DNA of 64,000 nt from Flavobacterium anhuiense (GTDB taxonomy: Bacteria > Bacteroidota > Bacteroidia > Flavobacteriales > Flavobacteriaceae). Below are positions 5,024 through 53,829 of this stretch, piece by piece; position 1 is the stretch's first letter, and the number at the start of each line of letters is the position of its first letter. A program made the translations under genes and the position numbers. Below the pieces are notes generated by a model. It was not told the DNA's origin. It worked only from the letters and a program-made list of their open reading frames with translations, and ran no database searches. The stretch covers positions 65,798-129,797 of the forward strand of contig NZ_FMVC01000010.1 of assembly GCF_900101855.1 (NCBI RefSeq), written 5' to 3'.

Positions 5024-5075
5024 AGATATATTGTTTTTATTTTTATTAGAAAAAGAATCACTAATTTTTAAAATT

Positions 5076-5597: not shown

Positions 5598-5620
5598 ATC
5601 TTTACTTTTTAAAGTTAATA

Positions 5621-6130
5621 TTAATTTGGAGAAGGAAAAGCGCCTTGTAAGGCAATGCAAAAATTCAAGGTAAGGAATGGTTGCATATTTAAATGGGGCT
5701 GGTTTCCGCCGACACTGGTAAGAGAACCCGAGTTCATCGAAGTAAAATTTTGGCTCTGGCCGCTATAAACTAAATTAGGAGCGGTATTAGCCAAAAAATT
5801 TGAAGAACTGGGGATATTGGTACTTGCCGCATCTGTTTTCGCCTGCAGTACATGGGTGTGCTCAGGCATCTCTGATAGGCTTAAAGTATGAGCTTCTTCT
5901 CCGCCTTTTTCTCCTATTGTATGCCCATTTCCAAAATGAATGGGAGTCCTTCCTCTTAAATTTGGCAAAGCAAATGTTGTTTGTCCATTGCCACCATACA
6001 TTGTTCCCAGTAGAGAAAACAAAGCTTGATTTTGGTTTATAGGCAAAAACTGCCCATTACATAAAGTCCAGCCTGTCGGAGCAAAGTTAAAAGACACGAT
6101 ACGTATTTCTCCTAAATAAGGTGTTGCCAT
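5621..6130 (-). CDS. Phage tail collar domain protein (copy 3)
   Basis: A 169-residue paralogue, MATPYLGEIRIVSFNFAPTGW, with GTMYGGNGQTTFALPNLRGR in the collar domain, SLSEMPEHTHVLQAK in the middle and PHLNMQPFLTLNFCIALQG at the end. The three copies differ mainly in the loop between the collar motif and the C-terminal motif (residues about 75-135), the region that would be exposed in a phage fibre tip. This suggests related proteins with different binding surfaces, perhaps a hetero-oligomer. Gene order and short gaps tie it to the operon that ends with the giant surface protein. Confidence 0.88.
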   Translation of the reverse strand: MATPYLGEIRIVSFNFAPTGWTLCNGQFLPINQNQALFSLLGTMYGGNGQTTFALPNLRGRTPIHFGNGHTIGEKGGEEAHTLSLSEMPEHTHVLQAKTDAASTNIPSSSNFLANTAPNLVYSGQSQNFTSMNSGSLTSVGGNQPHLNMQPFLTLNFCIALQGAFPSPN

Positions 6131-12579: not shown

Positions 12580-12591
12580 TTTGTTGTGTTT

Positions 12592-20097: not shown

Positions 20098-23000
20098 TTA
20101 AAATGTAACATCAATTCCAAAAATTACCGATTTTGGCTGTGGATATCTTCCTAAATCAATACCTGCTGAATTTGCATTACCATCTGCTCTTGCAATTTCT
20201 GGATCTAAACCAGAGTAATTTGTGATTGTAATAAGGTTCTGTCCGCTGATGTAGAACCTCGCTTTTGAGAAATAACTTTTAAAAGCATCTCCTGTCAATG
20301 TATATCCTAAAGCAATGTTTTTTAATCTTGTAAAAGAACCATCTTCAATATAACGTTGATTTGCTGAAGACCAGTTGATGTCTGCCCCTTGCGCTCTAGG
20401 CAATGTAGCTGAAGGGTTTGTTACCACACCATTTACAACATTTGCTCTATCTAAAACATCTGTGCTGGCGTTAAATAAACGGTTCATTCCTTTTAAGTCA
20501 AAAGTGTTTGCATTATAAATATCGTTACCTGCCACTCCAGTGATAAAGCAATTGAAATCAAAGTTTTTATATGCTGCACTTAGGTTTAAACCGTAAGTAA
20601 AATCAGGGTATGGATTTCCAATGTTTGTTTTATCATCTGAATTGATCACTTTATTGCCATCACGATCCACAATTTTAATATCTCCTGGTTTTATAGTAGT
20701 CTGACCTGGTCCAAAAACAGCATCTACTTCTGCCTGATTTTGGTAAATTCCATTAGTCTGATATCCATAAAAATAGAATAATGGCTGTCCTACTTCTAAT
20801 CTAGAGAAATTTTCTAAACCTGCTCTTGCAGAAGGACCTCCTAATACGCTAGTCACTCCAGGCGCTAAACCAACCACTTCATTTTTACTTGTTCCTAGAT
20901 TTGCTATTGCAGACCATGTAAAGTCTCCTTTTCTGTCATTGTAACCAATAGAAACTTCAAAACCGCTTACTTTTACGTCTGCAATATTTTGAATTTGAGT
21001 TCCACCACCTGCAGAACCAACAGAAGCAGCAAGAGGAACTGCAAAAAGAATGTCGCTACTTTTATTATTAAAATATTCAAATGAACCGGTTAGCTTATCA
21101 TCAAATAAACCAAAATCAACCCCAATATTTCGATCTAATTTTGATTCCCATTTCAAATCTGGATTAGCCGCAACACCTAAAGAAACTCCTGGTGCATTTG
21201 CGCCTCCAATTGGGTAATTGTAGTTTGCCAATAAAGTAGCACTGTATTGGTAATTATCTATTCTATCGTTTCCTGTTGTTCCTGTACTAGCTCTAAGTTT
21301 TAAAGTACTAAAAACAGAATTTTGCATAAAATTTTCTTTTGCAATATTCCACCCTAATGCAACAGAATAGAAATTCCCCCAGCGGTTATTTGCCCCAAAA
21401 CGAGAAGATGCATCTCTACGCCCTGAAACAGCTAAAAGATATTTGCCATCATAGTCATAGTTGATACGAGCTATATATCCTAAGTTTTTTTCTTCATAAT
21501 TAGAAGATCCTAAACTTCCTTCATTATATCTCAACTGATCAATTTCGTTTGAAATATAATAACGGCTTCCAGCTGCTAAACTTTGTCCTTTTCCGTCAAT
21601 TTTAGTGATAACTCCCAACACTTCAAGGTTGTGCTTTTGAGCAATCGTTGTTTTGTACGTTAAGCTATTATCAAAAACGATAGTTTGTCCTTGAGAATTT
21701 GTTTCGTTGGTTGAAGAAAAAGCCTGTTTGTGATAAGAACCATCTTGAAAACTTGGAATAAAAGTATGGTCTTTACTTGTGTAGTAATCTAAAGAAACTT
21801 GTGATCTGAATTTCAAACCTTTGTAAATTTCTAATTCTGCATAAATATTTCCGATAATAGATAGATTATTTATTTTCTGATACCCCAAATTCGCTACACG
21901 CACTGGGTTTTCAGCATCATTTCCATCAATGGCACTAGGACCTTGATAACCGCCTAAACTATTTTCATTGTAAATCGGAAAATACGGTGCCATTTTAATA
22001 GCATGCTCTAATAATGTTCTTCCGCCTGAGCTTCTTTCTGGATTAATCGTGCTGAAAGAAACCCCCATGTTGCTTCCAATCTTTAGTTTACCAATATCCT
22101 GTGTATTATTGGCTCTGAAAGAATAACGTTCGAAACCAGTATTTATAATAGCTCCTTCCTGTTTCATATATTCAGCAGAATAACGTCCTGTTGAAGTTTC
22201 TGTTCCATTTGAAAAGCTCAAGTTATAATCCTGCATAACACCAGTTTGAAAAATCTGATCTTGCCAGTTGGTATTGATGTTTCCAAACTCAGCTGCTCTA
22301 GCCGTTAAGTCGCTTCCTAAATCTTTAGCATATTGAAGGTATTGCTGTGTATTTAAAACACTATATCTTTTTGTTACTTCCTGTCCTCCCACATAAGTGC
22401 TAAAACTTAACTGACCTGGACCTTTTTTTCCTTTTTTAGTAGTAACCATAATAACCCCGTTAAAAGCTTTAGAACCATATAAAGCTGTTGTAGAAGCATC
22501 TTTCAAAACAGAAATGCTCTCGATGTCATTAGGGCTTAAACCTGAAAGATTCCCAGTTAAAACTCCATCAATTACATACAAAGGAGCACTGTTTCCCATT
22601 GTTGCCAGTCCACGAATACTAACGGTAGGATTAGAACCAGGCGCGCCGTTTACGACTGTAACCCCTGCTGCACGTCCTTGCAAAGCAGATTCAGCATTGG
22701 TAATAGGCACCGCGGCAATATCTTTTGAACTTACCGTAGAAATCGCTCCTGTAACCTTCGCTCTCTTTTGAGTACCATAGGCCACTACAACTTCATTAAG
22801 GTTTTGCGTGTTTTGAACTAGAGTTACATTGATTGAGCTTCTTTCACCTACAGTAATCGTTTGTGAAACTAAACCGACGTAAGAGTACGTTATTTTATCA
22901 GTAGGATTAACTCCTTTTAAAGAGTACTTACCGTCAAAATCTGTTGATGCGCTATTCTGCGTACCTTCTACATTAACACTGGCACCTGGCAAAGGAAATC

Positions 23001-23106
23001 CCGAAGGGTCGGTAATCACGCCATGAATGGTCTTTGATTGTGCCATTATACTATGACTGCCAACTAACAGCAGTCCGATTAGTGCAATTTTGAGCTTTAA
23101 CTTCAT
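20098..23106 (-). CDS. SusC/RagA-family TonB-dependent glycan transporter
   Basis: A 1,002-residue outer-membrane protein with leader ending HSIMAQ. A carboxypeptidase-like domain follows (IHGVITDPSGFPLPGASV), then the SusC signature VVVAYGTQKRAKVTGAI, a plug domain with SIRGLATMGNSAPLYVIDG and SISVLKDASTTALYGSK, and a 22-strand barrel that ends YPQPKSVIFGIDVTF. It imports oligosaccharides using TonB energy, paired with the SusD 12 bp downstream. Its promoter region (23107-23780) has two LacI-type operators, one over the predicted -33 box. Full length, no frameshift seen. Confidence 0.95.
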   Translation of the reverse strand: MKLKLKIALIGLLLVGSHSIMAQSKTIHGVITDPSGFPLPGASVNVEGTQNSASTDFDGKYSLKGVNPTDKITYSYVGLVSQTITVGERSSINVTLVQNTQNLNEVVVAYGTQKRAKVTGAISTVSSKDIAAVPITNAESALQGRAAGVTVVNGAPGSNPTVSIRGLATMGNSAPLYVIDGVLTGNLSGLSPNDIESISVLKDASTTALYGSKAFNGVIMVTTKKGKKGPGQLSFSTYVGGQEVTKRYSVLNTQQYLQYAKDLGSDLTARAAEFGNINTNWQDQIFQTGVMQDYNLSFSNGTETSTGRYSAEYMKQEGAIINTGFERYSFRANNTQDIGKLKIGSNMGVSFSTINPERSSGGRTLLEHAIKMAPYFPIYNENSLGGYQGPSAIDGNDAENPVRVANLGYQKINNLSIIGNIYAELEIYKGLKFRSQVSLDYYTSKDHTFIPSFQDGSYHKQAFSSTNETNSQGQTIVFDNSLTYKTTIAQKHNLEVLGVITKIDGKGQSLAAGSRYYISNEIDQLRYNEGSLGSSNYEEKNLGYIARINYDYDGKYLLAVSGRRDASSRFGANNRWGNFYSVALGWNIAKENFMQNSVFSTLKLRASTGTTGNDRIDNYQYSATLLANYNYPIGGANAPGVSLGVAANPDLKWESKLDRNIGVDFGLFDDKLTGSFEYFNNKSSDILFAVPLAASVGSAGGGTQIQNIADVKVSGFEVSIGYNDRKGDFTWSAIANLGTSKNEVVGLAPGVTSVLGGPSARAGLENFSRLEVGQPLFYFYGYQTNGIYQNQAEVDAVFGPGQTTIKPGDIKIVDRDGNKVINSDDKTNIGNPYPDFTYGLNLSAAYKNFDFNCFITGVAGNDIYNANTFDLKGMNRLFNASTDVLDRANVVNGVVTNPSATLPRAQGADINWSSANQRYIEDGSFTRLKNIALGYTLTGDAFKSYFSKARFYISGQNLITITNYSGLDPEIARADGNANSAGIDLGRYPQPKSVIFGIDVTF

Positions 23107-23256: not shown

Positions 23257-23285
23257 CAAATATAAAAAAACAACTAATAAAACAA
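23257..23285 (-). promoter_or_regulatory. Predicted promoter of the first susC
   Basis: On the minus strand TATATTTG (23257-23264) matches the TAnnTTTG -7 box. A TTG -33 element (23283-23285) lies 18 bp away. The -33 element is the first half of the operator, so repressor binding would block the promoter. Confidence 0.65.
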
Positions 23286-23292
23286 TCGGTTG
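23283..23292. promoter_or_regulatory. LacI-type operator, susC1 proximal
   Basis: CAATCGGTTG, a near-palindrome with central CG typical of LacI-family sites. It overlaps the predicted -33 element of the susC promoter. Identical cores occur at the other PUL promoters. Confidence 0.75.
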
Positions 23293-23592: not shown

Positions 23593-23602
23593 CAATCGGT
23601 TG
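23593..23602. promoter_or_regulatory. LacI-type operator, susC1 distal
   Basis: CAATCGGTTG flanked by AA and TT (AACAATCGGTTGTT), 310 bp upstream of the proximal site. No promoter is evident beside it, so an auxiliary site for looping is a reasonable reading. Confidence 0.7.
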
Positions 23603-39774: not shown

Positions 39775-41715
39775 TTAATATCCTGGATTTTGGTAAGCTA
39801 CTTTTTCATCAGCAGACATTTCCATTCCGTCGATTTGTCCTTGCGGGATTGGTCTTAGATAATGGTGTGGATCAATTGTTCTGGTCACTACTTCTGGCGT
39901 ATGCTGTCCGTAGTTAGATCCTCCGATAGAATATTTACCCGCAATTTCATTCCATTTTTGTGTTCTTACTAAGTCATACCAACGGTATCCTTCGCCAAAA
40001 AATTCACGTGAACGCTCAGCAAGAATGTAGTTAATATCAATTACAGCTGGAGTTGCATTGGTCATAGCAGCACTATTATCCTGAATTTTAGCCGTATTTC
40101 CATTATTGTCCCATTTCCATTTCCCTGCTCTAGCTCTAAGTACATTTACAAGAGATCTAGCACTCCAAGATCCTGTAGCTCCTTTAACAGCTGCTTCGGC
40201 TGCAACCAAATATAATTCAGAGAATTTTGCTACTGGGAATGGTCTTGTGCTTCCTGCATTAGGTTGCCCTAATCCTCCAGCGTTATCTGTTCTGTAAGGC
40301 CCAAGTTTCCAGAAACCTGGATATACAATTCTACTAATGCCTTTTGGAGAAATCACATAATCTGCTCTTCCCGGCAATACTCCTGCACCTACTCCGCTGT
40401 CGCCTTGCCCAGAAGGATAAGTGATTGCAGTTGCTGGCTCATCATTAAGGAAGCTTAAAACAGCGTCTCCAGGTTTAATTGTCAAACCATTTGCATTCGT
40501 TAGAGTTGCCACACCTGTAAGACCTGTTCCTTGAAGATTCCAATTTCCTCTGAAAACAGTTGTGAATGTTCCATCGTATCTTGAATCATTAGTCTTATCC
40601 GCAAAAGTGTTGGTAAAAACTTCAATAGGCGGCGCCATTCTTGTCCATGGGCGTCCTAAAAATTGATTCGCTTCTCTTTGTACTGAAGAAACTGCAGCGG
40701 TTCCGTTTTTACTTCTTATAGCAGTGTAGTTCCAAGTCACCATCCAACCTGAAAAGTTATCTGGAGCACCACCGCTACCGTACGTAAGACTTGCGCCATT
40801 ATAATATTCGCTTTCTTGCGTATGATCTGCATAAAGCATTACTTCTTTATTTCTGTCATTTGCTCCTGCATTAACATCATAATACGAATCAAGCAGTCCA
40901 TAAGACCCAGGATTATTTATTCCTTCTACAGCCAAATCATAGGCCTTCTGAAAATACCACTGTGCATTATGTCCGTCAGGATCTGTTCTTGGAGTATCTG
41001 GATAAGTTGGAATATTATTTGGGTTTTCTAACCACCAAGCATAAGTAAGATATGCCTTTGCTAGAAATAATCGTGCTACAGTTTTAGTTACCGTACCTGT
41101 CAATCTAGGTGCATCTGGAAGATCGTTAACTGCTGTAATCAAATCTGGAAAAATGGCTTTTGTATATACTTCAGGAACAGTATTTCGTTTAGAATATCTT
41201 GAAGGTTTGCTGTTAAACTTTAATTCTCCAGCTCCTAAATCTAATGGCACACCTCCAAAAGTTTGCACTAAAAGAAAGTAATCAAACCCTCTAAAAAATT
41301 TAGATTCAGCAATTAAACTGCTAGCAACACCTACGGCTGCTCCATTTTCGATAATACCGCTCGCGGTATTGATATCATAATAAGAGTTATTCCACAAAAC
41401 ATCTGAACGGCTTGAAGTTGGATTAATGATACCCACCCCAGATAAATCGTGATCTTTAAAATTTCCGTCTGCACTTTGCGCATATGTTGCCTCATCTGTT
41501 CCTGTCTGGCATGCATTATAAAAATAAGCTTGTCCGTAAATCCAGCGTAAATGTGCGTAATGAGAAGTTAATCCCTGTTTAACTCCCTGCTCTGTTTTAA
41601 AGTAGCCTGGTTCATAAAAATCATGAGGTTTTTCCTCTAATATATCAGAGCAGCCGGCTAATGAAAGTAAAACCGTTGATCCTATAATTAAATTTTTAAA
41701 AATATATCGTTTCAT
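39775..41715 (-). CDS. SusD/RagB-family lipoprotein (second pair)
   Basis: A 646-residue lipoprotein (lipobox LLSLAGCSDIL), about 150 residues longer than the first SusD. Family landmarks are AESKFFRGFDYFLLVQTFGGVPLDLG, YTKAIFPDLITAVNDLP, and the C-terminal FFGEGYRWYDLVRTQKW and HHYLRPIPQGQIDG, closing NPGY. Larger SusD proteins often handle longer or more branched ligands. It is 12 bp after its susC. Together the pair would import a second class of arabinoxylan fragment. No catalytic motif. Confidence 0.92.
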   Translation of the reverse strand: MKRYIFKNLIIGSTVLLSLAGCSDILEEKPHDFYEPGYFKTEQGVKQGLTSHYAHLRWIYGQAYFYNACQTGTDEATYAQSADGNFKDHDLSGVGIINPTSSRSDVLWNNSYYDINTASGIIENGAAVGVASSLIAESKFFRGFDYFLLVQTFGGVPLDLGAGELKFNSKPSRYSKRNTVPEVYTKAIFPDLITAVNDLPDAPRLTGTVTKTVARLFLAKAYLTYAWWLENPNNIPTYPDTPRTDPDGHNAQWYFQKAYDLAVEGINNPGSYGLLDSYYDVNAGANDRNKEVMLYADHTQESEYYNGASLTYGSGGAPDNFSGWMVTWNYTAIRSKNGTAAVSSVQREANQFLGRPWTRMAPPIEVFTNTFADKTNDSRYDGTFTTVFRGNWNLQGTGLTGVATLTNANGLTIKPGDAVLSFLNDEPATAITYPSGQGDSGVGAGVLPGRADYVISPKGISRIVYPGFWKLGPYRTDNAGGLGQPNAGSTRPFPVAKFSELYLVAAEAAVKGATGSWSARSLVNVLRARAGKWKWDNNGNTAKIQDNSAAMTNATPAVIDINYILAERSREFFGEGYRWYDLVRTQKWNEIAGKYSIGGSNYGQHTPEVVTRTIDPHHYLRPIPQGQIDGMEMSADEKVAYQNPGY

Positions 41716-41727
41716 GTCTGTATCTGA

Positions 41728-44700
41728 TTAAAATGTTAAATTAAGTCCAAATAAATAATTTCTGGTTGCAGGAGTGTTTGTACCGATAACAGAGAATCTT
41801 CTCTGATAAGAGGCAACAGCCTGATTTTCATCACCAAATGAATTCGTTTCAGGATCCATTCCAGATTTATCATGATATGGAGAAAATAAAACAAACGGAT
41901 TCTGCACTGTGAAATAAAGTCTTAACTTGTCTATTCCTACATTTTTTGTAAAGTTTGGGTCAAGAGTATATCCAAGAGTCATTGCTCTAATTTTTACATA
42001 AGAAGCATCAAAATATCCCATAGTTGACATATATTTAGGGTTATCTCCGCTTCTGATACCTCTCGGATTAGGGAACTCTCCGTCTCTATTATCTGGAGTC
42101 CAATAGTCAACATCTACGTTGCTTCTACGTCCGTTTAATAAGTTCATATAACTTGCTCCTCCATATAATGTGCTTATTAATACACCTCCGCTTTTAAATG
42201 CTCCTACTGCATTAAAATCAAATCCTTTGTAAGTTACATTAGTATTAAAACCTCCTTGGAAATCAGGATCTGTTTCAATAATCTGGCGATCGCTTGCATT
42301 AATGGCACGAGTTGGCGAACCATCTGGATTATATTCTCCGGTATATTTCACTTTGATCGATCCTACAACTGTTCCCTGCTGATTAATTCCAGTTGGTCCT
42401 GGCTCAAGAATTGACATATATGGATCACCTTCTTGCCAGATTCCAACCTTTTCATAATCATAGATTGAATTAATATTATATCCAACAAACCAATTGTTTG
42501 CTTCATCACGGCTAGCTCCTGATGCTAAAGCAACAAGTTTGTTTTCGTTTTTGTAGAAGTTAACTCCCACAGACCATGTCACACCTTTAGGATTATCAAG
42601 AATAACTCCGTTCAATGAGATTTCATAACCTTTGTTTTGTGTTTCTCCCACGTTAGCCACATAACTGCTTACACCAGATGTTGCTGGAAGACCCACACGC
42701 TGCAATAGATTTTTTGTATTGGTTTTATAATATTCAACTGTACCAGATAAGCGGTTATTAAAAAATCCGAAATCTAAACCATAGTTCCATGTAGTTGAGA
42801 ACTCCCATCCCAAATTAGGATTTGGAAGCTCAGTAACATATACTCCTGTTGAATTATTGCTTCCAAAATTGTATGGTCTTGTACTTAAAGCTCCTAGTGT
42901 TGCATAAGGAGCTACTGCCTGATTTGAAGTTTCTCCATACCCCGCTCTCAATTTCAATAAATTGATATGTTTAATATCTTTCATGAATGACTCATTTGAA
43001 AGTGTCCAACCAGCAGATACAGCAGGATAAGTTACCCATTTGTTTCCAGGAGATAATCTTGATGAACCGTCAGAACGAACTGTTCCAGATATAAAATAAC
43101 GGTTATCATAAGAGTACATTAACCTAGCCATATAAGATGTTAATCCCCATTGTGTATAATCCTGATCCGCAGGGTTAATTACAGCTTCTTCCTCGCTTTG
43201 CCCTAAATTGTAAAATTGGAAAGCATCAGAGGTAATTCCATTTCGAGTCACTCTCGAACTTTGTCCTGTATATTGTTCATTTGAATACAATCCAACAAAA
43301 TTTATTGTATGTTTCTGTGCAAAAGTTTTATCATAAGTCAATAAATTTTCCAACAGCCATTGTGTAGACCAGCCGTTTGTTATTGCCGCATTAGAAAGTG
43401 TCGTTGGGTTTACGTCAAAAACTCCTTGACCTTCATAATATCCAGCATTTGATGTGCGTAAATTCAAACCTGTATTAAGTCTGTATTTCAGCCCTTCAAC
43501 ACCTGGAATTTTAATTTCTGCAAAAATGTTATTATATGAACTGAAAGCTCTATTTAAATTCACATAAGCATCTCCTAAATTTTCAATAGATTTTCTAGTG
43601 TAAACCCACTGGTCATCTGCTGCCATGCTCACTGTTCTTTTCAAAGAACCATCTGCATTGTACGGATTAGCAAGCGGTGAAGTCTGCAAAATAGTTCCTG
43701 TTCCGATATTATCTCCATTTGTAATGCTGTAATTACTATTGGTGTTAAATCCTATACGAATAGATCGATTAATCTGCTGGTCTAAACCTGCTCTAAGGCT
43801 AAAACGCTCATAGCTTTGGCCAGGAAGAACTGATTCTTCTTTGTAATATCCTAAACCTGCATTGTACGCACCTGTTTCACTTCCACCCGAAACGCTAACA
43901 TCATGGCTGATCATTTCGCCAGAACCGTATAATGAATCCTGCCAATCTGTATTTACATTTCTTTTCTCATCAACACCATCTACATATAAACCTGTATAAT
44001 CACGAAGAGTAGCAAATTTAGAAGCATCCATCATAGGATATTTTGAAAAAACCTGTTTAATACCGCTAAAACCATTGTAGGTAAAAGTAGCTTTCTGATT
44101 TTTTCTTCCTTTTAAAGTAGTCACTAAAATTACACCGTTGGCTCCGCGAGAACCATAAATGGCGGTAGCAGAAGCATCTTTTAAAATATCCACAGACTTA
44201 ATATCTGCTGGATTAATATCTCCTATAGAACCCGCAAACGGAACCCCATCCAATACTACTAAAGGATCATTACTACCAGTAAGAGATCTTGTTCCTCTAA
44301 TCCTTATCTGCATTGCAGCGCCAGGTTTAGAAGAAGTTTGCGTCATCTCAACCCCTGCAAGCCTACCTTGCAAAGCTTGGGTAATATTGGCCGCGGGCAC
44401 TTCATTTAATTCTTTTCCTCCTAATGATGCAACCGATCCTGTAACAGCCTCCTTAATTTGAGTACCATATCCAATTACAACTACTTCTTTTAAGGCATTT
44501 GAGTCTTCCTCCAAAAGCACATTGATCTTGGTTTGTCCGTTCACGCTAATTTCTTGGCTTTTAAATCCTATAAAGCTAAAAACAAGAACACCATTTGAAG
44601 GAACACTTATAGAATAATTACCGTCGAAACCTGTACTTACTCCGTTTTTTGCTCCTTTTAGATTAACATTCACACCAGGAATTGGACCATTTGCATCCGA

Positions 44701-44817
44701 AACTGTTCCTGTAACTGCTGTTTGTGCCTTAATTTGCATTGAGACCAAAAACAATAGGATCAAAAAACCGAAGCTTTTTATATGCTTCGATTTACTTGTA
44801 ATAAAAAAATTATTCAT
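41728..44817 (-). CDS. SusC/RagA-family TonB-dependent transporter (second pair)
   Basis: A 1,029-residue outer-membrane protein; the signal peptide is preceded by a short basic stretch and ends SMQIKAQ. The carboxypeptidase-like domain (VTGTVSDANGPIPGVNVN) precedes the SusC signature EVVVIGYGTQIKEAVTGS and plug motifs IRIRGTRSLTGSNDPLVVLDG and KSVDILKDASATAIYGSRG. The barrel terminates with NYLFGLNLTF. It differs clearly from the first SusC (different plug loops), so the two pairs are not a recent duplication. Its upstream region holds two LacI-type operators arranged as at susC1. Confidence 0.95.
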   Translation of the reverse strand: MNNFFITSKSKHIKSFGFLILLFLVSMQIKAQTAVTGTVSDANGPIPGVNVNLKGAKNGVSTGFDGNYSISVPSNGVLVFSFIGFKSQEISVNGQTKINVLLEEDSNALKEVVVIGYGTQIKEAVTGSVASLGGKELNEVPAANITQALQGRLAGVEMTQTSSKPGAAMQIRIRGTRSLTGSNDPLVVLDGVPFAGSIGDINPADIKSVDILKDASATAIYGSRGANGVILVTTLKGRKNQKATFTYNGFSGIKQVFSKYPMMDASKFATLRDYTGLYVDGVDEKRNVNTDWQDSLYGSGEMISHDVSVSGGSETGAYNAGLGYYKEESVLPGQSYERFSLRAGLDQQINRSIRIGFNTNSNYSITNGDNIGTGTILQTSPLANPYNADGSLKRTVSMAADDQWVYTRKSIENLGDAYVNLNRAFSSYNNIFAEIKIPGVEGLKYRLNTGLNLRTSNAGYYEGQGVFDVNPTTLSNAAITNGWSTQWLLENLLTYDKTFAQKHTINFVGLYSNEQYTGQSSRVTRNGITSDAFQFYNLGQSEEEAVINPADQDYTQWGLTSYMARLMYSYDNRYFISGTVRSDGSSRLSPGNKWVTYPAVSAGWTLSNESFMKDIKHINLLKLRAGYGETSNQAVAPYATLGALSTRPYNFGSNNSTGVYVTELPNPNLGWEFSTTWNYGLDFGFFNNRLSGTVEYYKTNTKNLLQRVGLPATSGVSSYVANVGETQNKGYEISLNGVILDNPKGVTWSVGVNFYKNENKLVALASGASRDEANNWFVGYNINSIYDYEKVGIWQEGDPYMSILEPGPTGINQQGTVVGSIKVKYTGEYNPDGSPTRAINASDRQIIETDPDFQGGFNTNVTYKGFDFNAVGAFKSGGVLISTLYGGASYMNLLNGRRSNVDVDYWTPDNRDGEFPNPRGIRSGDNPKYMSTMGYFDASYVKIRAMTLGYTLDPNFTKNVGIDKLRLYFTVQNPFVLFSPYHDKSGMDPETNSFGDENQAVASYQRRFSVIGTNTPATRNYLFGLNLTF

Positions 44818-44916
44818 AAAAATTGATTTAATTATTAAAATTGGTTTTTGTTAGTTAGTTATTTTTTACACTTTAAAAAGTTAAATCAAGTATTAACTTA
44901 ATAAGTGTATTTATTA

Positions 44917-44946
44917 CAAATATAGAAAAATATCTTTCAAACACAA
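44917..44946 (-). promoter_or_regulatory. Predicted promoter of the second susC
   Basis: On the minus strand TATATTTG (44917-44924) fits TAnnTTTG; TTG (44944-44946) lies 19 bp further. As at susC1, the TTG is part of the operator. Predicted leader about 90 nt. Confidence 0.65.
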
Positions 44947-44953
44947 TCGGTTG
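44944..44953. promoter_or_regulatory. LacI-type operator, susC2 proximal
   Basis: CAATCGGTTG inside the 16-bp near-palindrome ACACAATCGGTTGTGT (44942-44955 and one base each side), the most symmetric of the GG-type sites. Overlaps the -33 element. Confidence 0.78.
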
Positions 44954-45264: not shown

Positions 45265-45274
45265 CAATCGATTG
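45265..45274. promoter_or_regulatory. LacI-type operator, susC2 distal
   Basis: CAATCGATTG, within the perfect palindrome AAACAATCGATTGTTT. It is 321 bp upstream of the proximal site, almost the same spacing as at susC1 (310 bp). Confidence 0.75.
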
Positions 45275-45528: not shown

Positions 45529-46239
45529 TTAAAAATTAAAATTGAATTTTGCATTCCAAAATATTTCATGTTTTGGCACATTCAAACTATAAAATTCAGC
45601 AGCCCTGTTTGATACGCCCTCTTCTTTTTCAGCAAGACCGCGAACTAATCTTCTCTGCAAAATCTTTCTTCTAAAATTAGTCTTATTGATTTTAATGCCT
45701 AAGATTATTTCATATAAATGAATTACTTGAAGCAAAGTAAATTTTTCAGGCAAGAGATTGAAGCCAACTGCGCTACAGCAAATATTCTTTCGCAATTCCT
45801 TAATGCTGAAATCAATTACTGCCATATATTTTTCCTCTAAATCAGCGATATTGTGTACGTCAACCCAAATCACATTAGATTGCAATTCGTCATCATCAAT
45901 TTTTTTTTCTTTGATCACCATTGCATAATATCCGATTGAGATATTTTCGCGAAATGATGCTGATGAGTGATAGCCAAATGCCCGTAATTGTTCCAAAAAG
46001 AAGTCATCTTCTGAAATATACTTTTTCAAAATCTTTTGTGCCGTTTTTAATATTGTCTGCCCCTCTTCCAAACTGGCACTAGGCAATCTCCAGTTACCAT
46101 TCGTTGCATCATTTTCATTTTTGACAAGCAAAACTCTTAGGCTTCTGTCTTCAAAACAGAATATTACACAGTCAATTTCTATCTTATTTTCTTGACTTAA
46201 ATTAAAACCTACTCTCTCTTCTGAGTCTTCTTTTTTCAT
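45529..46239 (-). CDS. NUDIX-domain transcriptional regulator (NrtR/AraR-like)
   Basis: A 236-residue protein. The N-terminal Nudix fold spans about residues 18-145 (IEIDCVIFCFEDRSLRVLLV, GNWRLPSASLEEG). The Nudix box is degenerate: the positions for the catalytic REUxEE read QKILKK, so hydrolysis is unlikely. The C-terminal 80 residues form a winged-helix module (LPEKFTLLQVIHLYEIILG, KTNFRRKILQRRLV). This is the layout of the Bacteroidetes sugar-responsive NUDIX regulators related to NrtR, including the arabinose regulator AraR of Bacteroides. It probably senses arabinose or xylose. It is co-transcribed with the cytosolic GH43 (gap 24 bp). Confidence 0.85.
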   Translation of the reverse strand: MKKEDSEERVGFNLSQENKIEIDCVIFCFEDRSLRVLLVKNENDATNGNWRLPSASLEEGQTILKTAQKILKKYISEDDFFLEQLRAFGYHSSASFRENISIGYYAMVIKEKKIDDDELQSNVIWVDVHNIADLEEKYMAVIDFSIKELRKNICCSAVGFNLLPEKFTLLQVIHLYEIILGIKINKTNFRRKILQRRLVRGLAEKEEGVSNRAAEFYSLNVPKHEIFWNAKFNFNF

Positions 46240-46263: not shown

Positions 46264-47298
46264 CTAATCAAATAATCTTCTTATTCCGTAGGGATCAATC
46301 GTTACGATCGAACCGTCTTCCAGATAGTCGATTTTGGTCACTTTCATGCTTCTCAAATGCGTCACCCCTTTTGAAAGGCTCGAATCATGGTAGAACAGAT
46401 ACCACTCGCCTTCCACTTCGCAGATCGAATGGTGCGATGTCCAGCCTATCACCGGATTCAGGATTCTTCCCTGATACGTAAATGGTCCGTACGGACTGTC
46501 TCCAATAGCATAGCAGATGAAATGCGTGTCGCCTGTCGAATAGGAGAAATAATATTTTCCGTTGTATTTGTGCACCCACGAAGCTTCAAAAAAACGGCGC
46601 GCATTATCCCCTGCCAGAAGCCCATTTCCGTTTTCGTCCAAAATCTGGATTTCTCTCGGCTCTTCGGCGAACTCGAGCATATCATCTCTTAACAAAGCCA
46701 CAATCGGCCCCAAGGCTTTTTCACCCGCAAGAGGCTCTTCGTTGTTTTCATGATATTCATTATTGCGGTATTTCTGAAGCTGTCCGCCCCAGATTCCCCC
46801 AAAATAGATGTAATGTTTCCCATCTTCATCTTCAAAGACCGCAGGATCGATGCTGTAGCTGCCTTTTATGGCGTCCTTTTCAGGAACAAAAGGTCCGACT
46901 GGCGAGTCCGAAACCGCTACGCCGATCTGAAAAATTCCGCTGGCGCGTTTGGCAGGGAAATACAGATAATACTTTCCGTTCTTATGTGCGGCATCGGGCG
47001 CCCACATCTGCTTTTCGGCCCAGGCAACGTCATCCACATGCAATGCAACCCCATTGTCGACGGCTTCCGATGAAATGTCCTCCATCGAAAAGACATGGTA
47101 ATCCTCCATTCCGAAATGGTCGCCGTTGTCATTAAATGGAATCCCCGCATCGATGTCGTGCGACGGATAAATGTAAATCTTTCCGTTGAATACATGCGCC
47201 GAAGGATCGGCGGTGTAGATATGGGAAACTAAAGGCTTGGAAATTGCCAGATTGCTTATTTCTTCAAAATTAATGTGTTCAATGCTGTCTTCAGGCAT
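46264..47298 (-). CDS. Cytosolic or periplasm-independent GH43 beta-xylosidase
   Basis: A 344-residue GH43 without signal peptide (MPEDSIEHINFEEIS), unlike the other four GH43s of the locus. Catalytic positions are Asp31 in YTADPSAHVFNG, Asp in YSIDPAVFEDEDG and Glu in FFEASWVHK. It probably cuts short xylosides or arabinosides in the cytoplasm. Base composition stands out: one sampled 60-bp stretch has 36 G+C against roughly 35-40 percent around it, and long spurious frames occur on both strands. It heads a unit with the NUDIX regulator, and its promoter carries two operators. Confidence 0.88.
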   Translation of the reverse strand: MPEDSIEHINFEEISNLAISKPLVSHIYTADPSAHVFNGKIYIYPSHDIDAGIPFNDNGDHFGMEDYHVFSMEDISSEAVDNGVALHVDDVAWAEKQMWAPDAAHKNGKYYLYFPAKRASGIFQIGVAVSDSPVGPFVPEKDAIKGSYSIDPAVFEDEDGKHYIYFGGIWGGQLQKYRNNEYHENNEEPLAGEKALGPIVALLRDDMLEFAEEPREIQILDENGNGLLAGDNARRFFEASWVHKYNGKYYFSYSTGDTHFICYAIGDSPYGPFTYQGRILNPVIGWTSHHSICEVEGEWYLFYHDSSLSKGVTHLRSMKVTKIDYLEDGSIVTIDPYGIRRLFD

Positions 47299-47449: not shown

Positions 47450-47480
47450 CAAAAATAATATTGTTTTCTGACAAAAACAA
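47450..47480 (-). promoter_or_regulatory. Predicted promoter of the GH43-NUDIX unit
   Basis: TATTTTTG on the minus strand (47450-47457) fits TAnnTTTG; TTG (47478-47480) is 20 bp further and again belongs to an operator. Confidence 0.6.
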
Positions 47481-47487
47481 TCGGTTG
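47478..47487. promoter_or_regulatory. LacI-type operator, GH43 proximal
   Basis: CAATCGGTTG, followed by TGT as at susC2. Covers the predicted -33 element. Confidence 0.75.
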
Positions 47488-47554: not shown

Positions 47555-47564
47555 CAACCGATTG
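47555..47564. promoter_or_regulatory. LacI-type operator, GH43 distal
   Basis: CAACCGATTG, the same site in reverse orientation, 77 bp upstream of the proximal copy. Confidence 0.72.
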
Positions 47565-47729: not shown

Positions 47730-48761
47730 TTAAACTTTCTTCGAAGATTCACGCACCAATACTTCAGTATTTAGAAAAGTGATTTCTTTTGCTTCTTCTT
47801 CTTTATGAAATTCTATAGTATCAATGACAATATTTGCTGCCGCTTTTCCCATTTTTTCTGCAGGATGGGTAATCGTTGTAATATTCGGCTCGATTATCTC
47901 TGAAATGGGATCATTGTTAAAACCAATTACAGCAAAATCCTGCGGAACTTTAATTCCTTTCTTTTTTGCTGTTTGTACGGCGCTAACAGCAAGAATGTCT
48001 CCTGGCGCAAAAAGTCCATCGGGAGGCGATTTTAGCCCAAACAGTTTATTGCAGGCTTTAACGCCAGCATCATAAGTCATTGCTTTCAGATTTATAATCA
48101 ATTCCTCTCTCAATGGCAGACCATAATCAGCTAGTGCATCTATATAGCCTCTTTTTCTTTCATTATAAAGATTGCCGAATTCAGCACCTGCTGTCATATG
48201 TGCAATTCTTTTACAGCCTTGTTCTATCAGGTGTTTTGTTGCTTTATATCCTGCCGTATAATTATCAATAACCACCCTAAAAGTATTAAAGTCTTTAGGC
48301 ACACGGTCAACAAATACAAGAGGAATATTATTATTTGAAAATTGCTGAAAGTGAGAAGTATCTTTTGTCTCCATTGCCAACGAACAAATAACACCGCTGA
48401 CCCTACTGCTATAAAGCGATTTAGTCATATTAACTTCTTCTTCATAAGAATCATGCGACTGCATAATAATAACGGAGTAATCAGATTTTCTGGCAGTGAT
48501 TTCGATACCACTGATCAAAGATGATAAGAAAGGCTGTGTGATAGTTGGAATTAAAACGCCAATAGTTTTAGATTTGTTGCCTCGTAGTCCTGCTGCCAAA
48601 GTATTGGGAACAAATCCCATTTCTTCGGCTGTCTTTTTCACTTTCTTAATAGTCTTATCACTTATGGTATGATGGTCTTTTAAAGCTCTTGAAATTGTCG
48701 ATGTAGCCAGATTAAGTCTCTTTGCAATATCATAAATTGTTACATGTCTGTGTTCTTCCAT
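47730..48761 (-). CDS. LacI-family transcriptional regulator of the PUL
   Basis: A 343-residue regulator. The N-terminal helix-turn-helix is VTIYDIAKRLNLATSTISRALK (residues about 8-28) with the hinge helix motif PNTLAAGLRG near residue 52-61. The periplasmic-binding-protein-like effector domain follows (TIGVLIPTITQPFLSSLISG, VFVDRVPKD, GLFAPGDILAVSA). LacI members usually repress and are released by a sugar or sugar phosphate. Central-CG palindromes of the type expected for this family occur at all four promoters of the locus, making this the likely binding protein. It is transcribed divergently from the GH3-transketolase unit. Confidence 0.9.
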   Translation of the reverse strand: MEEHRHVTIYDIAKRLNLATSTISRALKDHHTISDKTIKKVKKTAEEMGFVPNTLAAGLRGNKSKTIGVLIPTITQPFLSSLISGIEITARKSDYSVIIMQSHDSYEEEVNMTKSLYSSRVSGVICSLAMETKDTSHFQQFSNNNIPLVFVDRVPKDFNTFRVVIDNYTAGYKATKHLIEQGCKRIAHMTAGAEFGNLYNERKRGYIDALADYGLPLREELIINLKAMTYDAGVKACNKLFGLKSPPDGLFAPGDILAVSAVQTAKKKGIKVPQDFAVIGFNNDPISEIIEPNITTITHPAEKMGKAAANIVIDTIEFHKEEEAKEITFLNTEVLVRESSKKV

Positions 48762-48810: not shown

Positions 48811-48967
48811 AAGTATTTCAACACTATTATTCTCCACTTTACCAACGAATTTACTGAAAATCAATATAAAATGAAATTTTTATCATAAAAAATCATCAAT
48901 ACTACAGTAAAAAGGCATTATTTTTTAAATAATGATCTAAAGTTAAAATATTTTTCTTTTCTTTACA

Positions 48968-48977
48968 CAATCGGTTG
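48968..48977. promoter_or_regulatory. LacI-type operator upstream of GH3
   Basis: CAATCGGTTG preceded by ACA, 65 bp upstream of the GH3 start and about 207 bp from the divergent regulator start. No good TAnnTTTG is visible downstream, so the promoter position is open. Confidence 0.72.
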
Positions 48978-49041: not shown

Positions 49042-51669
49042 ATGAAAACAAAAAAATTAAAGTATCAAATTCTGGTATTAATCTCGCTTTGGTGTACGGC
49101 ACAAAACAAAGACCCTAAATTTCCATTTCAAAATACTGATCTTACTTTTGAAGAACGAGTGGAAAACTTGGTGAGCCAATTAACATTGGAAGAAAAAGTA
49201 GCGCAAATGTTAAATGCGGCACCTGCCATACCACGGCTGGGAATTCCTGCTTATGACTGGTGGAACGAAACGCTTCACGGCGTTGCAAGAACTCCCTTTA
49301 AAACAACAGTTTTTCCACAGGCTATTGCAATGGCCGCTACTTTTGATAAAAATTCACTTTTCAAAATGGCCGATTATTCTGCTCTAGAAGGCAGAGCCAT
49401 TTACAATAAAGCTGTCGAGCTTAATAGAACCAACGAACGCTATTTAGGACTTACCTACTGGACGCCAAACATTAACATCTTTAGAGATCCAAGATGGGGA
49501 CGCGGACAAGAAACTTACGGAGAAGACCCTTATCTGACGGCTGTTTTGGGCGATGCTTTTGTAAAAGGCCTTCAAGGAGACGATCCTAAATACCTAAAAG
49601 CCGCGGCTTGCGCAAAACACTACGCTGTCCATAGCGGACCAGAATCTTTGCGCCACACTTTTGACGTTGATGTAACTCCATATGAACTTTGGGACACCTA
49701 TTTGCCTGCTTTCAAAAAACTAGTCACCAACTCCAAAGTTGCAGGGGTTATGTGCGCCTATAATGCCTTTAGAACCCAACCTTGCTGCGCCAGTGATATC
49801 TTAATGAATGATATTCTAAGAAATCAATGGAAATTTACGGGTTATGTTACCTCTGACTGCTGGGCTATTGATGATTTTTTTAAAAACCATAAAACACATC
49901 CTGATGCGGCATCTGCTTCAGCCGATGCAGTGCTTCATGGAACCGATATCGACTGCGGAACGGATGCTTATAAATCACTTGTTCAAGCTGTTAAAAATGG
50001 TCAAATTACCGAAAAACAAATTGATGTTTCTGTAAAACGCCTTTTTATGATCCGTTTCAGGTTGGGTATGTTCGATCCGGTATCAATGGTAAAATATGCT
50101 CAAACTCCAAATTCGGTTCTAGAATCTGATGAGCATAAGGAGCATGCTCTAAAAATGGCTAGACAATCTATAGTACTGCTTAAAAATGAAAAAAATACGC
50201 TTCCATTGAGCAAAAAATTGAAAAAGATTGTTGTTTTAGGTCCAAATGCAGATAATTCAATTTCTATACTTGGAAATTATAATGGAACTCCATCCAAACT
50301 AACAACCGTTATACAAGGTATTAAAGGAAAAGTAAGCCCTGAAACTGAAGTAGTTTATGAAAAAGCCATCAACTTTACAAATGACACTTTGCTGGTTTAC
50401 AAAGATCTTAAGAGCCGTTATTCTTATGAAGGAAAACAAGGTTTTAAAGCTGAATACTTTAATAACAATACATTATCTGGCACACCTGAAACTATAAGAA
50501 CTGAATCTGAAATAAATAATTTCTGGCAGGAAGGAGAAATGGTTACCCAAAACATCAAAGCCAATCATTTTTCGGCACGCTATACTACTAATTTTAAAGC
50601 AGATGAAGATGGTTCTATTACTTTTGAAATCGCTGCAGATGACGGCTATAGATTTATTGTTGATGGAAAAGAAGTTATAGACGCTTGGGGGAAAAACAGA
50701 TGGGGAGCAAAAACCTACAAACTGCAAACCAAAAAAGATTCTGTTTACAAATTAGTGTTGGAATACTGGCAAGGTGAAGGAAAAGCTGAAGTAGCTCTGC
50801 AAGCAGGGAATTTTATAAAAACAGATTTTGCTAATCTAATTGAGCGACATAAAAATGCAGATGCTTTCATTTTCGCTGGAGGTATTTCACCTCAACTTGA
50901 AGGAGAAGAAATGCCTGTTGACGCGCCTGGATTTAATGGCGGAGACCGCACTTCTATCATGCTTCCAGAAGTACAGACAAGACTTTTAAAAGCGCTTCAA
51001 TCTTCTGGAAAACCAGTAGTTTTTCTGATAATGACCGGTAGTGCAATAGCTGTTCCGTGGGAAGCTGAAAATATTCCCGCTATACTCAACATTTGGTATG
51101 GAGGACAATCTGCAGGAACGGCCTCAGCAGATGTCATTTTTGGCGACTATAATCCTGCAGGAAGGCTTCCCGTAACCTTTTATAAAGGCGATTCTGATTT
51201 ACCTTCTTTTGTTGATTATAAAATGGATAATAAAACATATCGTTACTTTAAAGGCATTCCTCTATACGGATTTGGCTATGGTTTAAGCTATACTGAATTT
51301 AAATACAGCGGACTAAAAACTCCCGCTAAAATAAAGAAAGGACAGCCAGTCACTATTTCTGTTAAGGTTACCAACAGTGGAAAAATGGAAGGAGAAGAAG
51401 TGGCGCAATTGTACTTAATTAACCCGAATACATCAATAAAATCACCTTTAAAAAGCCTCAAAGGATTTGAAAGGTTCAATTTGAAACCTGGCCAAAGTAC
51501 AGTTGTCAATTTCACACTTTCTCCAGAAGATCTTTCTTATGTAACAGAAAGCGGAAACTTAAAGCCTTATGAAGGTAAAATTCAAATTGCCGTTGGAGGC
51601 TCTCAGCCAGATGAAAAAAATCAAACAAAGAGTAATAGTATAACTCAAACTTTAGAGATAAAAAATTAA
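49042..51669 (+). CDS. GH3 beta-xylosidase/beta-glucosidase with inserted PA14 domain
   Basis: An 875-residue secreted enzyme (short leader ending WCTAQ). Domain order: GH3 TIM barrel (about 25-345) with nucleophile Asp272 in GYVTSDCWAID, alpha/beta sandwich (about 375-450 and 600-690), a PA14 domain inserted between (about 455-600; KAEYFNNNTLSGTPE, SITFEIAADDGYRFIVDG), and a C-terminal fibronectin-type III domain (VTVKVTNSG-type, here ISVKVTNSGKMEGEE). The SDCWAI nucleophile context is that of GH3 xylosidase-like members. It would release xylose from non-reducing ends. An operator lies 65 bp upstream and transketolase follows after 67 bp. Confidence 0.92.
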   Translation: MKTKKLKYQILVLISLWCTAQNKDPKFPFQNTDLTFEERVENLVSQLTLEEKVAQMLNAAPAIPRLGIPAYDWWNETLHGVARTPFKTTVFPQAIAMAATFDKNSLFKMADYSALEGRAIYNKAVELNRTNERYLGLTYWTPNINIFRDPRWGRGQETYGEDPYLTAVLGDAFVKGLQGDDPKYLKAAACAKHYAVHSGPESLRHTFDVDVTPYELWDTYLPAFKKLVTNSKVAGVMCAYNAFRTQPCCASDILMNDILRNQWKFTGYVTSDCWAIDDFFKNHKTHPDAASASADAVLHGTDIDCGTDAYKSLVQAVKNGQITEKQIDVSVKRLFMIRFRLGMFDPVSMVKYAQTPNSVLESDEHKEHALKMARQSIVLLKNEKNTLPLSKKLKKIVVLGPNADNSISILGNYNGTPSKLTTVIQGIKGKVSPETEVVYEKAINFTNDTLLVYKDLKSRYSYEGKQGFKAEYFNNNTLSGTPETIRTESEINNFWQEGEMVTQNIKANHFSARYTTNFKADEDGSITFEIAADDGYRFIVDGKEVIDAWGKNRWGAKTYKLQTKKDSVYKLVLEYWQGEGKAEVALQAGNFIKTDFANLIERHKNADAFIFAGGISPQLEGEEMPVDAPGFNGGDRTSIMLPEVQTRLLKALQSSGKPVVFLIMTGSAIAVPWEAENIPAILNIWYGGQSAGTASADVIFGDYNPAGRLPVTFYKGDSDLPSFVDYKMDNKTYRYFKGIPLYGFGYGLSYTEFKYSGLKTPAKIKKGQPVTISVKVTNSGKMEGEEVAQLYLINPNTSIKSPLKSLKGFERFNLKPGQSTVVNFTLSPEDLSYVTESGNLKPYEGKIQIAVGGSQPDEKNQTKSNSITQTLEIKN

Positions 51670-51736
51670 TTATTAATTCCTGCAAACTTTAATTTATTCG
51701 CAGGCGTGTTATTAGCATTTATAAAAAAACTAAAAA

Positions 51737-53776
51737 ATGGACAAGACAATAGACCAATTATCGGCAGATAATATTAGAACCTTAGCAATATCAATGGTTG
51801 AAAAAGCCAATTCTGGACATCCCGGAGGATCAATGGGAGGAGCAGATTTTATGCATATTTTATATTCTGAATATTTAAAATATGATCCAACCGAAATGAA
51901 CTGGATTTACAGAGATCGTTTCTTTATGGATGCTGGGCATTTATCGGCTTTAATGTATGCTCAGTACTATCTTTTGGGAAATTATGAAAAAACCGATCTT
52001 GAAAACTTCAGACAGTGGGGTTCTGTAACGCCTGGACACCCAGAAATTGATGTAAAGAGAGGAATTGAAAACACATCAGGTCCGTTGGGACAGGGACATG
52101 TTATGGGAATTGGAGCTGCCATCGCGGCCAAATTTCTATCGGAAAAATTCGACAATTTATTCGATCATAAAATATACGGTTTTATAACAGACGGAGGTGT
52201 TCAGGAAGAAATTTCGCAGGGAGCAGGAAGAATTGCAGGACATTTAGGGCTAAACAATTTTATCATGTTTTATGATTCTAATGATGTGCAATTATCTTCC
52301 ATGACCGACGAAGTAACCAGTGAAAATACAGCCGCAAAATATGAATCTTGGGGATGGAAGGTCATCACTATTGACGCTCACAATCATACTCAAATACGCT
52401 CTGCACTAAACGCCGCAAATGCCGAATTAAAAAGGCCTACGCTTATTATTGGAAGAACAATTATGGGAAAAGGCTGCGTTACTTCTGACGGAACATTATA
52501 CGAAGGTCAATGTGAACTTCACGGCAAACCAATCGGAGCAACAAAAGCGGACTTTATAAAAACACTCGAAAATTTGGGCGCTGATCCAAAAGATTCTTTT
52601 GCCATTTACAGCAGCGTTGAAGACCATTATAAAAAAGTTTTAGAACAAAAAACTAAGGATGCTGCTGAAAGAAAATCAAAAATTTTGGCTTGGGAAAATC
52701 AAAATCCTGAGTCTGCCAAAAAGATAAAACAGTTTTTCAGCGGAGAACTTCCTGAAATGGACTTCGGCTCTATAACTCAAAAAGCTAATGCGGCAACACG
52801 CGATGCCTCCGCAGAAGTTTTAGGCTATTTGGCCGAAAAAGTGGAAAACATGATTGTTTCTTCTGCAGATTTGTCGAACAGCGATAAAACAGATGGTTTC
52901 TTGAAAAAGACTTCAGTGATGCAAAAAGGTAACTTTAGCGGAGCATTTCTTCAAGCTGGTGTTGCCGAACTTACTATGGCCGCAATTGCAAACGGAATGT
53001 CTCTGCATGGAGGAGTAATTCCTGTTGTCGCGACTTTCTTTGTTTTTTCTGATTACATGAAACCCGCCATGCGTCTTGCGGCAATTCAAGAACTTCCTGT
53101 AAAATATGTATTTACGCACGATTCGTTTAGAGTTGGAGAAGACGGACCAACCCATCAGCCAATTGAACAAGAAGCTCAAATTAGGCTTTTAGAAAAAATT
53201 AAAAACCATTCGGGGCATCAGAGCTTTTTAGCACTGCGCCCAGCTGATGCAACTGAAACTTCGGTAGCATGGCAAATGGCAGTTGAAAATAAAATAACTC
53301 CGACGGCATTAATACTTTCCAGACAAAACATCAAAGATCTTCCGTACAAGGATCCAAAGTTCGAGACGGCGTCACAAGCTAAAAAAGGCGGTTATCTGGT
53401 TAAAGAAACCCAAAATCCAGATCTTACTTTAATTGCAAACGGATCTGAGGTTGCCACTCTTTTAGAAGCGGCTTCTGAATTGGAAAAAACAAAACAATTA
53501 AAGATAAATGTTGCTTCGATAATTTCTGAGGGCATTTTCAGATCTCAAGCAAAAGAATATCAAGAAAGTATAATTCCAAAAGACGGATTGGTTTTCGGTT
53601 TAACGGCAGGGCTTCCTATAAATCTTGAAAGTTTAGCAGGTTCCAGAGGAATTGTATACGGCTTAGATCATTTTGGCTACTCAGCACCAGCTTCGGTTTT
53701 AGATCAAAAATTTGGATTTACGGCTGAAAATATTAGCAATGAGATATTGAAGTATTTGGAAACTCAGAGACAATAG
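51737..53776 (+). CDS. tkt: Transketolase
   Basis: A 679-residue full-length cytosolic thiamine-diphosphate enzyme. Landmarks: HPGGSMGGADFMHIL, the GHLSALMYA and GPLGQGHVMGIG segments, a TPP/Mg motif ending in YDSNDVQLSS (preceded by FITDGGVQEE), and a pyrimidine-domain FVFSDYMKPAMRLA with HDSFRVGEDGPTHQPIEQ. It moves two-carbon units between pentose and triose phosphates, the step needed to bring xylose and arabinose carbon into glycolysis. Lying 67 bp after the GH3 gene and behind an operator, it is probably a PUL-induced isoenzyme; whether another copy exists elsewhere cannot be seen. Confidence 0.93.
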   Translation: MDKTIDQLSADNIRTLAISMVEKANSGHPGGSMGGADFMHILYSEYLKYDPTEMNWIYRDRFFMDAGHLSALMYAQYYLLGNYEKTDLENFRQWGSVTPGHPEIDVKRGIENTSGPLGQGHVMGIGAAIAAKFLSEKFDNLFDHKIYGFITDGGVQEEISQGAGRIAGHLGLNNFIMFYDSNDVQLSSMTDEVTSENTAAKYESWGWKVITIDAHNHTQIRSALNAANAELKRPTLIIGRTIMGKGCVTSDGTLYEGQCELHGKPIGATKADFIKTLENLGADPKDSFAIYSSVEDHYKKVLEQKTKDAAERKSKILAWENQNPESAKKIKQFFSGELPEMDFGSITQKANAATRDASAEVLGYLAEKVENMIVSSADLSNSDKTDGFLKKTSVMQKGNFSGAFLQAGVAELTMAAIANGMSLHGGVIPVVATFFVFSDYMKPAMRLAAIQELPVKYVFTHDSFRVGEDGPTHQPIEQEAQIRLLEKIKNHSGHQSFLALRPADATETSVAWQMAVENKITPTALILSRQNIKDLPYKDPKFETASQAKKGGYLVKETQNPDLTLIANGSEVATLLEAASELEKTKQLKINVASIISEGIFRSQAKEYQESIIPKDGLVFGLTAGLPINLESLAGSRGIVYGLDHFGYSAPASVLDQKFGFTAENISNEILKYLETQRQ

Positions 53777-53800: not shown

Positions 53801-53829
53801 AAAAGCCAGAAAAAGAATTTCTGGCTTTT
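53801..53829. terminator. Bidirectional terminator after transketolase
   Basis: A 12-bp stem (AAAAGCCAGAAA, 53801-53812, with 53818-53829), T-rich on both exits. It marks the end of the PUL. Confidence 0.85.

Follow-up and report, generated by a model that had tools for sequence, protein, structure and literature searches.

An accessory transketolase gene behind a GH3 glycosidase gene and a LacI-type operator in Flavobacterium anhuiense

Introduction

In Flavobacterium anhuiense (RefSeq assembly GCF_900101855.1), a gene for a full-length transketolase (TKT) lies directly behind a GH3 glycosidase gene beside a xylan PUL. Which promoter and which regulator serve this gene, and how did it come to be there? 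The stretch of DNA analysed here (64,000 nucleotides of contig NZ_FMVC01000010.1, positions 65,798–129,797; referred to as the window) had been described in a first-pass annotation as carrying a transketolase gene in the transcript of a β-xylosidase under the PUL operator, an arrangement that was considered rare. As detailed below, comparison with other members of the genus makes it quite likely that the two genes form a LacI-controlled transcript that would be induced with xylan use, would feed pentose catabolism, and stems from a single relocation.

Gene organization of the GH3–TKT pair and the surrounding PUL

The first gene of the unit (49042–51669, forward strand) encodes a protein of 875 aa in which GH3 N- and C-terminal, PA14, and Fn3-like domains were identified by domain search, and its membership in the GH3 family is clear. 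The top NCBIfam model was Xyl3A (NF041776), which matched over residues 26–861 with 1057 bits, below the equivalog cut-off of 1250. The earlier designation 'β-xylosidase', and with it the presumed substrate, is thus probable.

The second gene (51737–53776, forward strand) encodes a TKT of 679 aa; this single polypeptide combines Transketolase_N, Transket_pyr, and C-terminal domains, all scoring above the Pfam cut-offs. Because its score against the NCBI equivalog TIGR00232 (603 bits) does not reach the cut-off of 682, it is regarded as a divergent member. Nevertheless, in an alignment its catalytic and cofactor motifs (GHPG, TPGHPE, GEDGPTHxPIEQ, and others) line up with those of the solved transketolases 3hyl and 8r3s.

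The two genes are on the same strand and are separated by 67 bp (51670–51736), exactly as the first-pass annotation had stated. No terminator was found in this gap, the stem of which folds like those of shuffled sequences (z = 0.18). An intrinsic terminator with a 12-bp stem was predicted 3′ of TKT (53801–53829, forward strand; fold z = −5.18); terminator-like sites overall were not enriched over shuffled sequences (9 vs. 8.6), so this terminator call rests on its fold. No match to a known RNA in Rfam was found between positions 44000 and 56000.

From GH3 in the direction away from TKT, the gene order is a divergent LacI-family regulator (47730–48761, reverse strand), a GH43-like gene of the PUL (46264–47298, reverse strand), an NrtR-family regulator (45529–46239, reverse strand), and then the rest of a long xylan PUL, including genes for a SusC-like receptor (41728–44817, reverse strand) and a SusD-like lipoprotein (39775–41715, reverse strand). 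In total, the PUL contains two SusC/SusD pairs, several GH43 genes, and genes for esterases, GH115, GH127, GH97, and GH8. Genes for a proline racemase-like and an ornithine cyclodeaminase-like protein adjoin one another near the PUL (11512–13545). Further away, three overlapping neighbouring ORFs (4508–6130) cluster together and one of them (5621–6130) has a phage tail collar domain, for which reasons they perhaps represent a tandem family.

LacI-type operators and regulators

The near-palindromic sequence CAATCGGTTG is common to the promoters across a putative LacI xylan regulon, including those of both SusC genes. Six exact sites were found in the window: one upstream of GH3 (48968–48977), two in opposite orientations in the GH43/LacI intergenic region (47478–47487 and 47555–47564), one at the SusC promoter (44944–44953), and two upstream of the second SusC gene (20098–23106), at 23283–23292 and 23593–23602. 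A variant, CAATCGATTG, lies in the same promoter region of the first SusC gene (45265–45274). Only 0.08 exact sites were expected and none of 100 shuffles reached six; genome-wide, 21 copies were found vs. 3 of the reversed pattern. The 'PUL operator' of the first-pass annotation is thus borne out as a motif.

This operator was present at the GH3 start in all 30 GH3 loci read, 23 of which also have a LacI gene beside GH3. Both the operator and the divergent LacI gene accompany the GH3–TKT pair in all 10 such loci of the genus survey described below, and the operator was also found in eight named GH3–TKT loci (among the best 80 of 164 matches). The divergent LacI-family protein is thus the presumed repressor of the unit. 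A second LacI gene (514–1542 of L145), located near the xylan/xylose locus on contig C11, encodes a protein with 83% identity to that of the window and an almost identical DNA-binding part, and the two paralogues may share one set of operators.

The NrtR-family regulator is closer to the NrtR regulators encoded beside xylBA (52–56% identity) than to AraR (30%). The box TAATAAGTGTA at the SusC promoter (44899–44909) resembles the word AATAAGTGT, which occurs upstream of TKT in 34 of 36 TAL/NrtR-type loci. In the SusC promoter (44899–44953), the LacI-type operator is located on the −33 side and the TAATAAGTGTA box just beyond TATATTTG; it is possible that this promoter is under the double control of LacI and the NrtR-type regulator. 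Matches to the GntR/XylR box with one mismatch were not in excess in the window (6 vs. 6.15 expected).

Promoter motifs and the intergenic gap

The sigma-A promoter of Flavobacterium psychrophilum carries an upstream TTG. Its −7 box has been described as TAnnTTTG (PMC9723704). The pattern TTG-N18-22-TAnnTTTG was searched for within 500 bp before the 62 TKT copies of the genus. It was found before 42 of the 52 copies that are not behind GH3 vs. none of the 10 that are; as controls, the reversed pattern was found before 3 and 0 of these copies, respectively, and the reverse complement before 8 and 0. In the 67-bp gap of the window, neither this pattern nor a sigma-70-type match was found, in agreement with the earlier statement that no separate promoter is apparent. 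Because the GH3 promoter region itself contains only an imperfect −7 box (TATTTTTC at 48949), this absence is weak evidence when taken alone.

The gap measures 13–83 bp in 9 of the 10 GH3-linked loci of the genus (13 bp in L062), and its sequence varies among the GH3–TKT subclades. In L077, it is widened to 248 bp and contains a long inverted repeat, as judged by eye. A stem of at least 7 bp is present in the gaps of L063, L064, and L065 (the first and last by folding, L064 by eye), and the other subclades are without such a stem. Those of L063 and L065 fold somewhat better than shuffled sequences (z = −1.2 and −1.9, respectively), and a role of this stem in processing or stability is possible.

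In four loci (L106, L199, L200, and L202), TKT is located beside a LacI gene and is preceded by its own TAnnTTTG promoter motif, downstream of which lies a ACCAGAACAGTA-like (GntR/XylR-type) box of the kind also found before xylBA in several species. No LacI operator (up to two mismatches) was found upstream of TKT in the stretches fetched for these loci, whereas one is present in L108.

Distribution and genomic context of TKT

Among 60 relatives, some transketolase match was obtained in 56 and a full-length one in only four. A survey of the genus identified 62 full-length TKT copies in 56 of 398 genomes; these copies are 70–97% identical and have open reading frames. Up to 20 kb around the other 61 copies was compared, with some stretches being shorter at contig ends. 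Since ORFs cut by the end of a stretch can drop out, the context counts are lower bounds, and they are limited to the TKT, GH3, LacI, NrtR, TAL, SusC, and SusD clusters because the single-linkage clusters lump some SDR and GH43 proteins. All counts treat the genomes alike, irrespective of relatedness.

GH3 is directly upstream of TKT in 10 of the 62 cases. Transaldolase (one cluster) is encoded in at least 42 stretches, mostly directly downstream of TKT, NrtR in at least 42, both in at least 36, and SusC/SusD-like proteins in at least 39. Among the 10 GH3-linked stretches of ~20 kb, SusC/SusD-like genes were found in at least two and the NrtR cluster in two. Three genomes (G301, G088, and G082) carry both a GH3-type and a TAL/NrtR-type TKT. 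GH3 is also common without TKT: a strong GH3 match was obtained in 43 of the 398 genomes, and in the 30 GH3 loci read, GH3 is followed by TKT in 10 and by other genes in 20.

The best 80 of 164 named loci were compared as well. The TKT of the window is 96–97% identical to those of Flavobacterium sp. HBTb2-11-1, F. nitrogenifigens, and F. anhuiense, and eight of these loci, belonging to F. nitrogenifigens, F. anhuiense, F. hydrophilum, F. fluviatile, F. limi, F. phragmitis, and two more species and partly representing the same genomes as the genus survey, contain GH3–TKT and LacI with the operator ~2.7 kb before TKT. In six loci of five other genera (Polaribacter, Cellulophaga, Lutibacter [two loci], Aquimarina, and Mariniflexile), the order is xylB-xylA…TKT-TAL. 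These context counts indicate that a TKT gene in a pentose locus is ordinary for Flavobacteriaceae, and the rarity in PULs that the first-pass annotation assumed for central-metabolism genes does not hold for these TKTs; Tkt and Tal already appear in the figure key of a report on xylan loci (PMC12125979).

Phylogeny and origin of the GH3-linked TKT

A quick TKT tree was constructed from 86 rows, i.e. the 62 genus copies and 24 chosen from the best 80 of the 164 named loci. All 13 GH3-linked rows form a single clade (SH-aLRT 89, which is not in the starred class of the method) that sits in a 33-row branch with a support of 99, the other 20 rows of which are TAL/NrtR-linked. Because this clade is nested among TKTs of arabinose-type PULs, one such TKT probably moved behind GH3; that is, the GH3-linked TKT probably arose by one relocation behind an existing operator–GH3 unit, the direction of the move being deduced from the nesting.

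Two other LacI-side groups are apart from the GH3-linked clade: L106, L199, and L202 form one clade (97), and L108 is the sister of L098 from the same genome (99). A single origin of all LacI-side TKTs was rejected in an AU test (p = 1e-74 for the GH3 and LacI rows together and p = 0.007 when only the four LacI rows were grouped), which used a quick tree of 61 rows, with 25 of the 86 left out and with groups picked after the first tree.

Considering its contexts, it is reasonably likely that one accessory TKT family behaves as a roaming module that has been separately wired to xylan/xylose control at least three times in Flavobacterium: behind the operator and GH3; on the side of LacI with a GntR/XylR-type box, as found in F. 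glycines, F. palustre, and F. seoulense; and on the side of LacI with the operator, as found in genome G134, where TKT lies beside LacI and is next of kin to the arabinose-type copy of the same genome. If so, regulons for uptake would have recruited a central enzyme several times over, keeping its capacity in step with the inflow of pentoses. Such independent rewiring within a single transketolase family is of more interest than the GH3–TKT pair itself.

Pentose-related loci elsewhere in the genome

The source genome consists of 5.34 Mb in 15 contigs. A count of its transketolase genes, proposed in the first-pass annotation, gave one full-length gene (that of the window) and one split gene on contig C12 (283 and 324 aa). 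The TKT of the window is an accessory copy and not the only transketolase of the cell. Two transaldolase-family genes (contigs C11 and C5) and one ribulose-phosphate epimerase gene were found.

The xylan/xylose locus on C11 (L144) contains genes for a TalC/FSA-type transaldolase, xylA, xylB, GntR, GH43, a GPH symporter, GH10, mannonate dehydratase, an SDR, and GH67, among which GH43, GH10, and GH67 were named because they resemble relatives that had been scanned for families or because they gave weak model matches. Four further CAATCGGTTG sites are located in this locus, before the GPH symporter, GH67, and other genes. The promoter region before GntR-xylB-xylA is conserved and contains AGAACRG repeats, and the LacI site is ~340 bp upstream of GntR. 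Given this distance and the conserved promoter boxes that GntR has of its own, it is uncertain whether LacI controls xylBA in this genome. When 20 fetched loci (L270–L289) and L144 were compared, the front of xylB-xylA was found to vary by species: besides GntR alone, an NrtR-type gene replaces GntR in L275, L282, L283, L285, and L286, both genes are present in L287 and L289, and in L272 and L278, where GntR is absent and no other regulator gene takes its place, a LacI site is found 131 bp upstream of xylB. To see whether a former TKT copy has left traces between the xylA and TAL genes of the source genome, TKT was compared by tblastn with the 339-bp gap and its flanks; the single 11-residue match (E = 1.0) gave no indication of such a remnant.

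The arabinose/galactose-type locus of the source genome (L317, contig C3) contains genes for AraR (94%) and a GH51-like protein, arabinose-like genes, and gal genes, the three arabinose genes and GH51 being named from sequence starts, place, and likeness. In many relatives, TKT-TAL sits between GntR and AraR; L317 contains neither of the two genes.

Possible function and mechanism

In the genus, xylA was present in 47 of the 56 TKT genomes vs. 76 of the 342 genomes without TKT (odds ratio 18, with relatedness ignored). The nine TKT genomes without xylA include the GH3–TKT genome G224 (a draft of ~180 contigs). Because 76 of the 123 xylA genomes have no TKT of this family, the split transketolase can presumably serve. 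TKT most likely provides extra transketolase activity that is induced when xylan is used, acting with the C11 or C5 transaldolase and the epimerase.

According to the best reading of the sequence, GH3 and TKT are co-transcribed from the GH3 promoter, and the terminator at 53801 would close the transcript. The divergent LacI, and perhaps also its 83% identical paralogue near the C11 locus, would most likely repress this promoter via CAATCGGTTG at 48968 and be released upon uptake of xylo-oligosaccharides or xylose. GH3 would contribute to the release of xylose. The products of xylA and xylB, which lie on C11 amid genes that bear this operator, would convert the sugar to xylulose-5-phosphate, and the accessory TKT and transaldolase would turn the latter into fructose-6-phosphate and glyceraldehyde-3-phosphate; the split transketolase would serve at other times. 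The TKT itself would be of the arabinose-PUL type and would have been relocated once behind the operator–GH3 unit.

Three alternatives were weighed against this reading. TKT might be expressed constitutively from a promoter of its own in the gap or inside GH3, its neighbourhood being incidental. As the GH3 promoter region deviates from TAnnTTTG, non-consensus promoters likely exist, and the gap sequences differ between subclades; however, the contrast in the promoter motif (0 of 10 vs. 42 of 52 copies), the 13-bp gap of L062, and the retention of the pair in one 13-row clade make such a promoter unlikely. It is quite unlikely that the GH3 transcript reaches TKT but is switched by something other than LacI, such as the XylR-like regulator of the NrtR type encoded at 45529. 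With the exact box patterns tried, one site was found in the window, at 44899, and none at GH3, and the LacI operator marks the start of GH3 in every one of the 30 loci read, whereas the NrtR cluster occurs in only 2 of 10 GH3–TKT stretches. In favour of this alternative, the NrtR gene belongs to the same PUL, the SusC promoter carries a TAATAAGTGTA box, and species differ in what precedes xylB-xylA (GntR, NrtR-type, both, or only the LacI operator).

A third reading, in which a rearrangement happened to leave TKT next to GH3 and the gene contributes little, is very improbable. It would fit with the 20 of 30 GH3 loci in which no TKT follows GH3 and with the 76 xylA genomes that manage without it, but the genus copies are open and 70–97% identical, the active-site motifs are conserved, TKT has been retained behind GH3 throughout one clade, and the other copies bear pentose-type boxes. 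Co-transcription with GH3 under a LacI-type operator, as proposed in the first-pass annotation, is accordingly kept as the best reading in view of the motif contrast, the short gap of L062, and the constancy of the operator; the part of that proposal that fails is the rarity in PULs.

The GH3–TKT arrangement suggests how a polysaccharide-use regulon could acquire a second, dedicated copy of a central-metabolism enzyme, such that downstream capacity would be set by the switch for uptake and cutting. The genus offers natural comparisons (TKT with its own promoter motif, TKT behind GH3, and no TKT), by which the benefit is directly testable.

Comparison with known systems

The GH3–TKT unit was compared with related loci and with published systems. 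A limited search of titles and abstract openings found no paper on a GH3–TKT pair in Flavobacterium, which does not prove its absence. In a study on β-1,3-xylan loci (ISME J 2025; PMC12125979), the figure key includes Tkt, Tal, and LacI, and susC/D pairs are stated to be conserved in Bacteroidota; these are GH26 loci for β-1,3-xylan, and the parts of the paper covered contain no GH3–TKT pair, unlike the window. NrtR-type AraR and XylR of Bacteroides have been described as pentose regulators encoded beside pentose genes (NAR 2015; PMC4666351), a study on arabinose genes in the main text of which 'transketolase', 'tkt', and 'transaldolase' do not occur. In Gramella flava (PMC5306329), xylA and xylB are downstream of a xylan PUL, and transketolase and transaldolase were reported in the proteome.

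In the tree, the GH3-linked TKTs are closest to those of the TKT-TAL pairs in Flavobacterium arabinose/galactose-type PULs (e.g. L066 and L160, the latter of F. pectinovorum), which also have a SusC/SusD context. Unlike the GH3–TKT unit, these pairs have their own sigma-A motif, the AATAAGTGT word (34 of 36), and an NrtR/AraR-type regulator, and most of their stretches contain neither GH3 nor CAATCGGTTG. In the six xylB-xylA-(one gene)-TKT-TAL loci (L205, L208, L212, L222, L228, and L233; among the best 80 of 164), a TKT of the same family with 70–73% identity is accompanied by xylose-use genes, the extra gene between xylA and TKT being present in five loci and missing in L228. In these loci, TKT adjoins TAL and is near xylA, whereas the TKT of the window is apart from both and lies behind GH3 and a LacI-type operator. 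The GH3–TKT unit is a variant of these known pentose loci.
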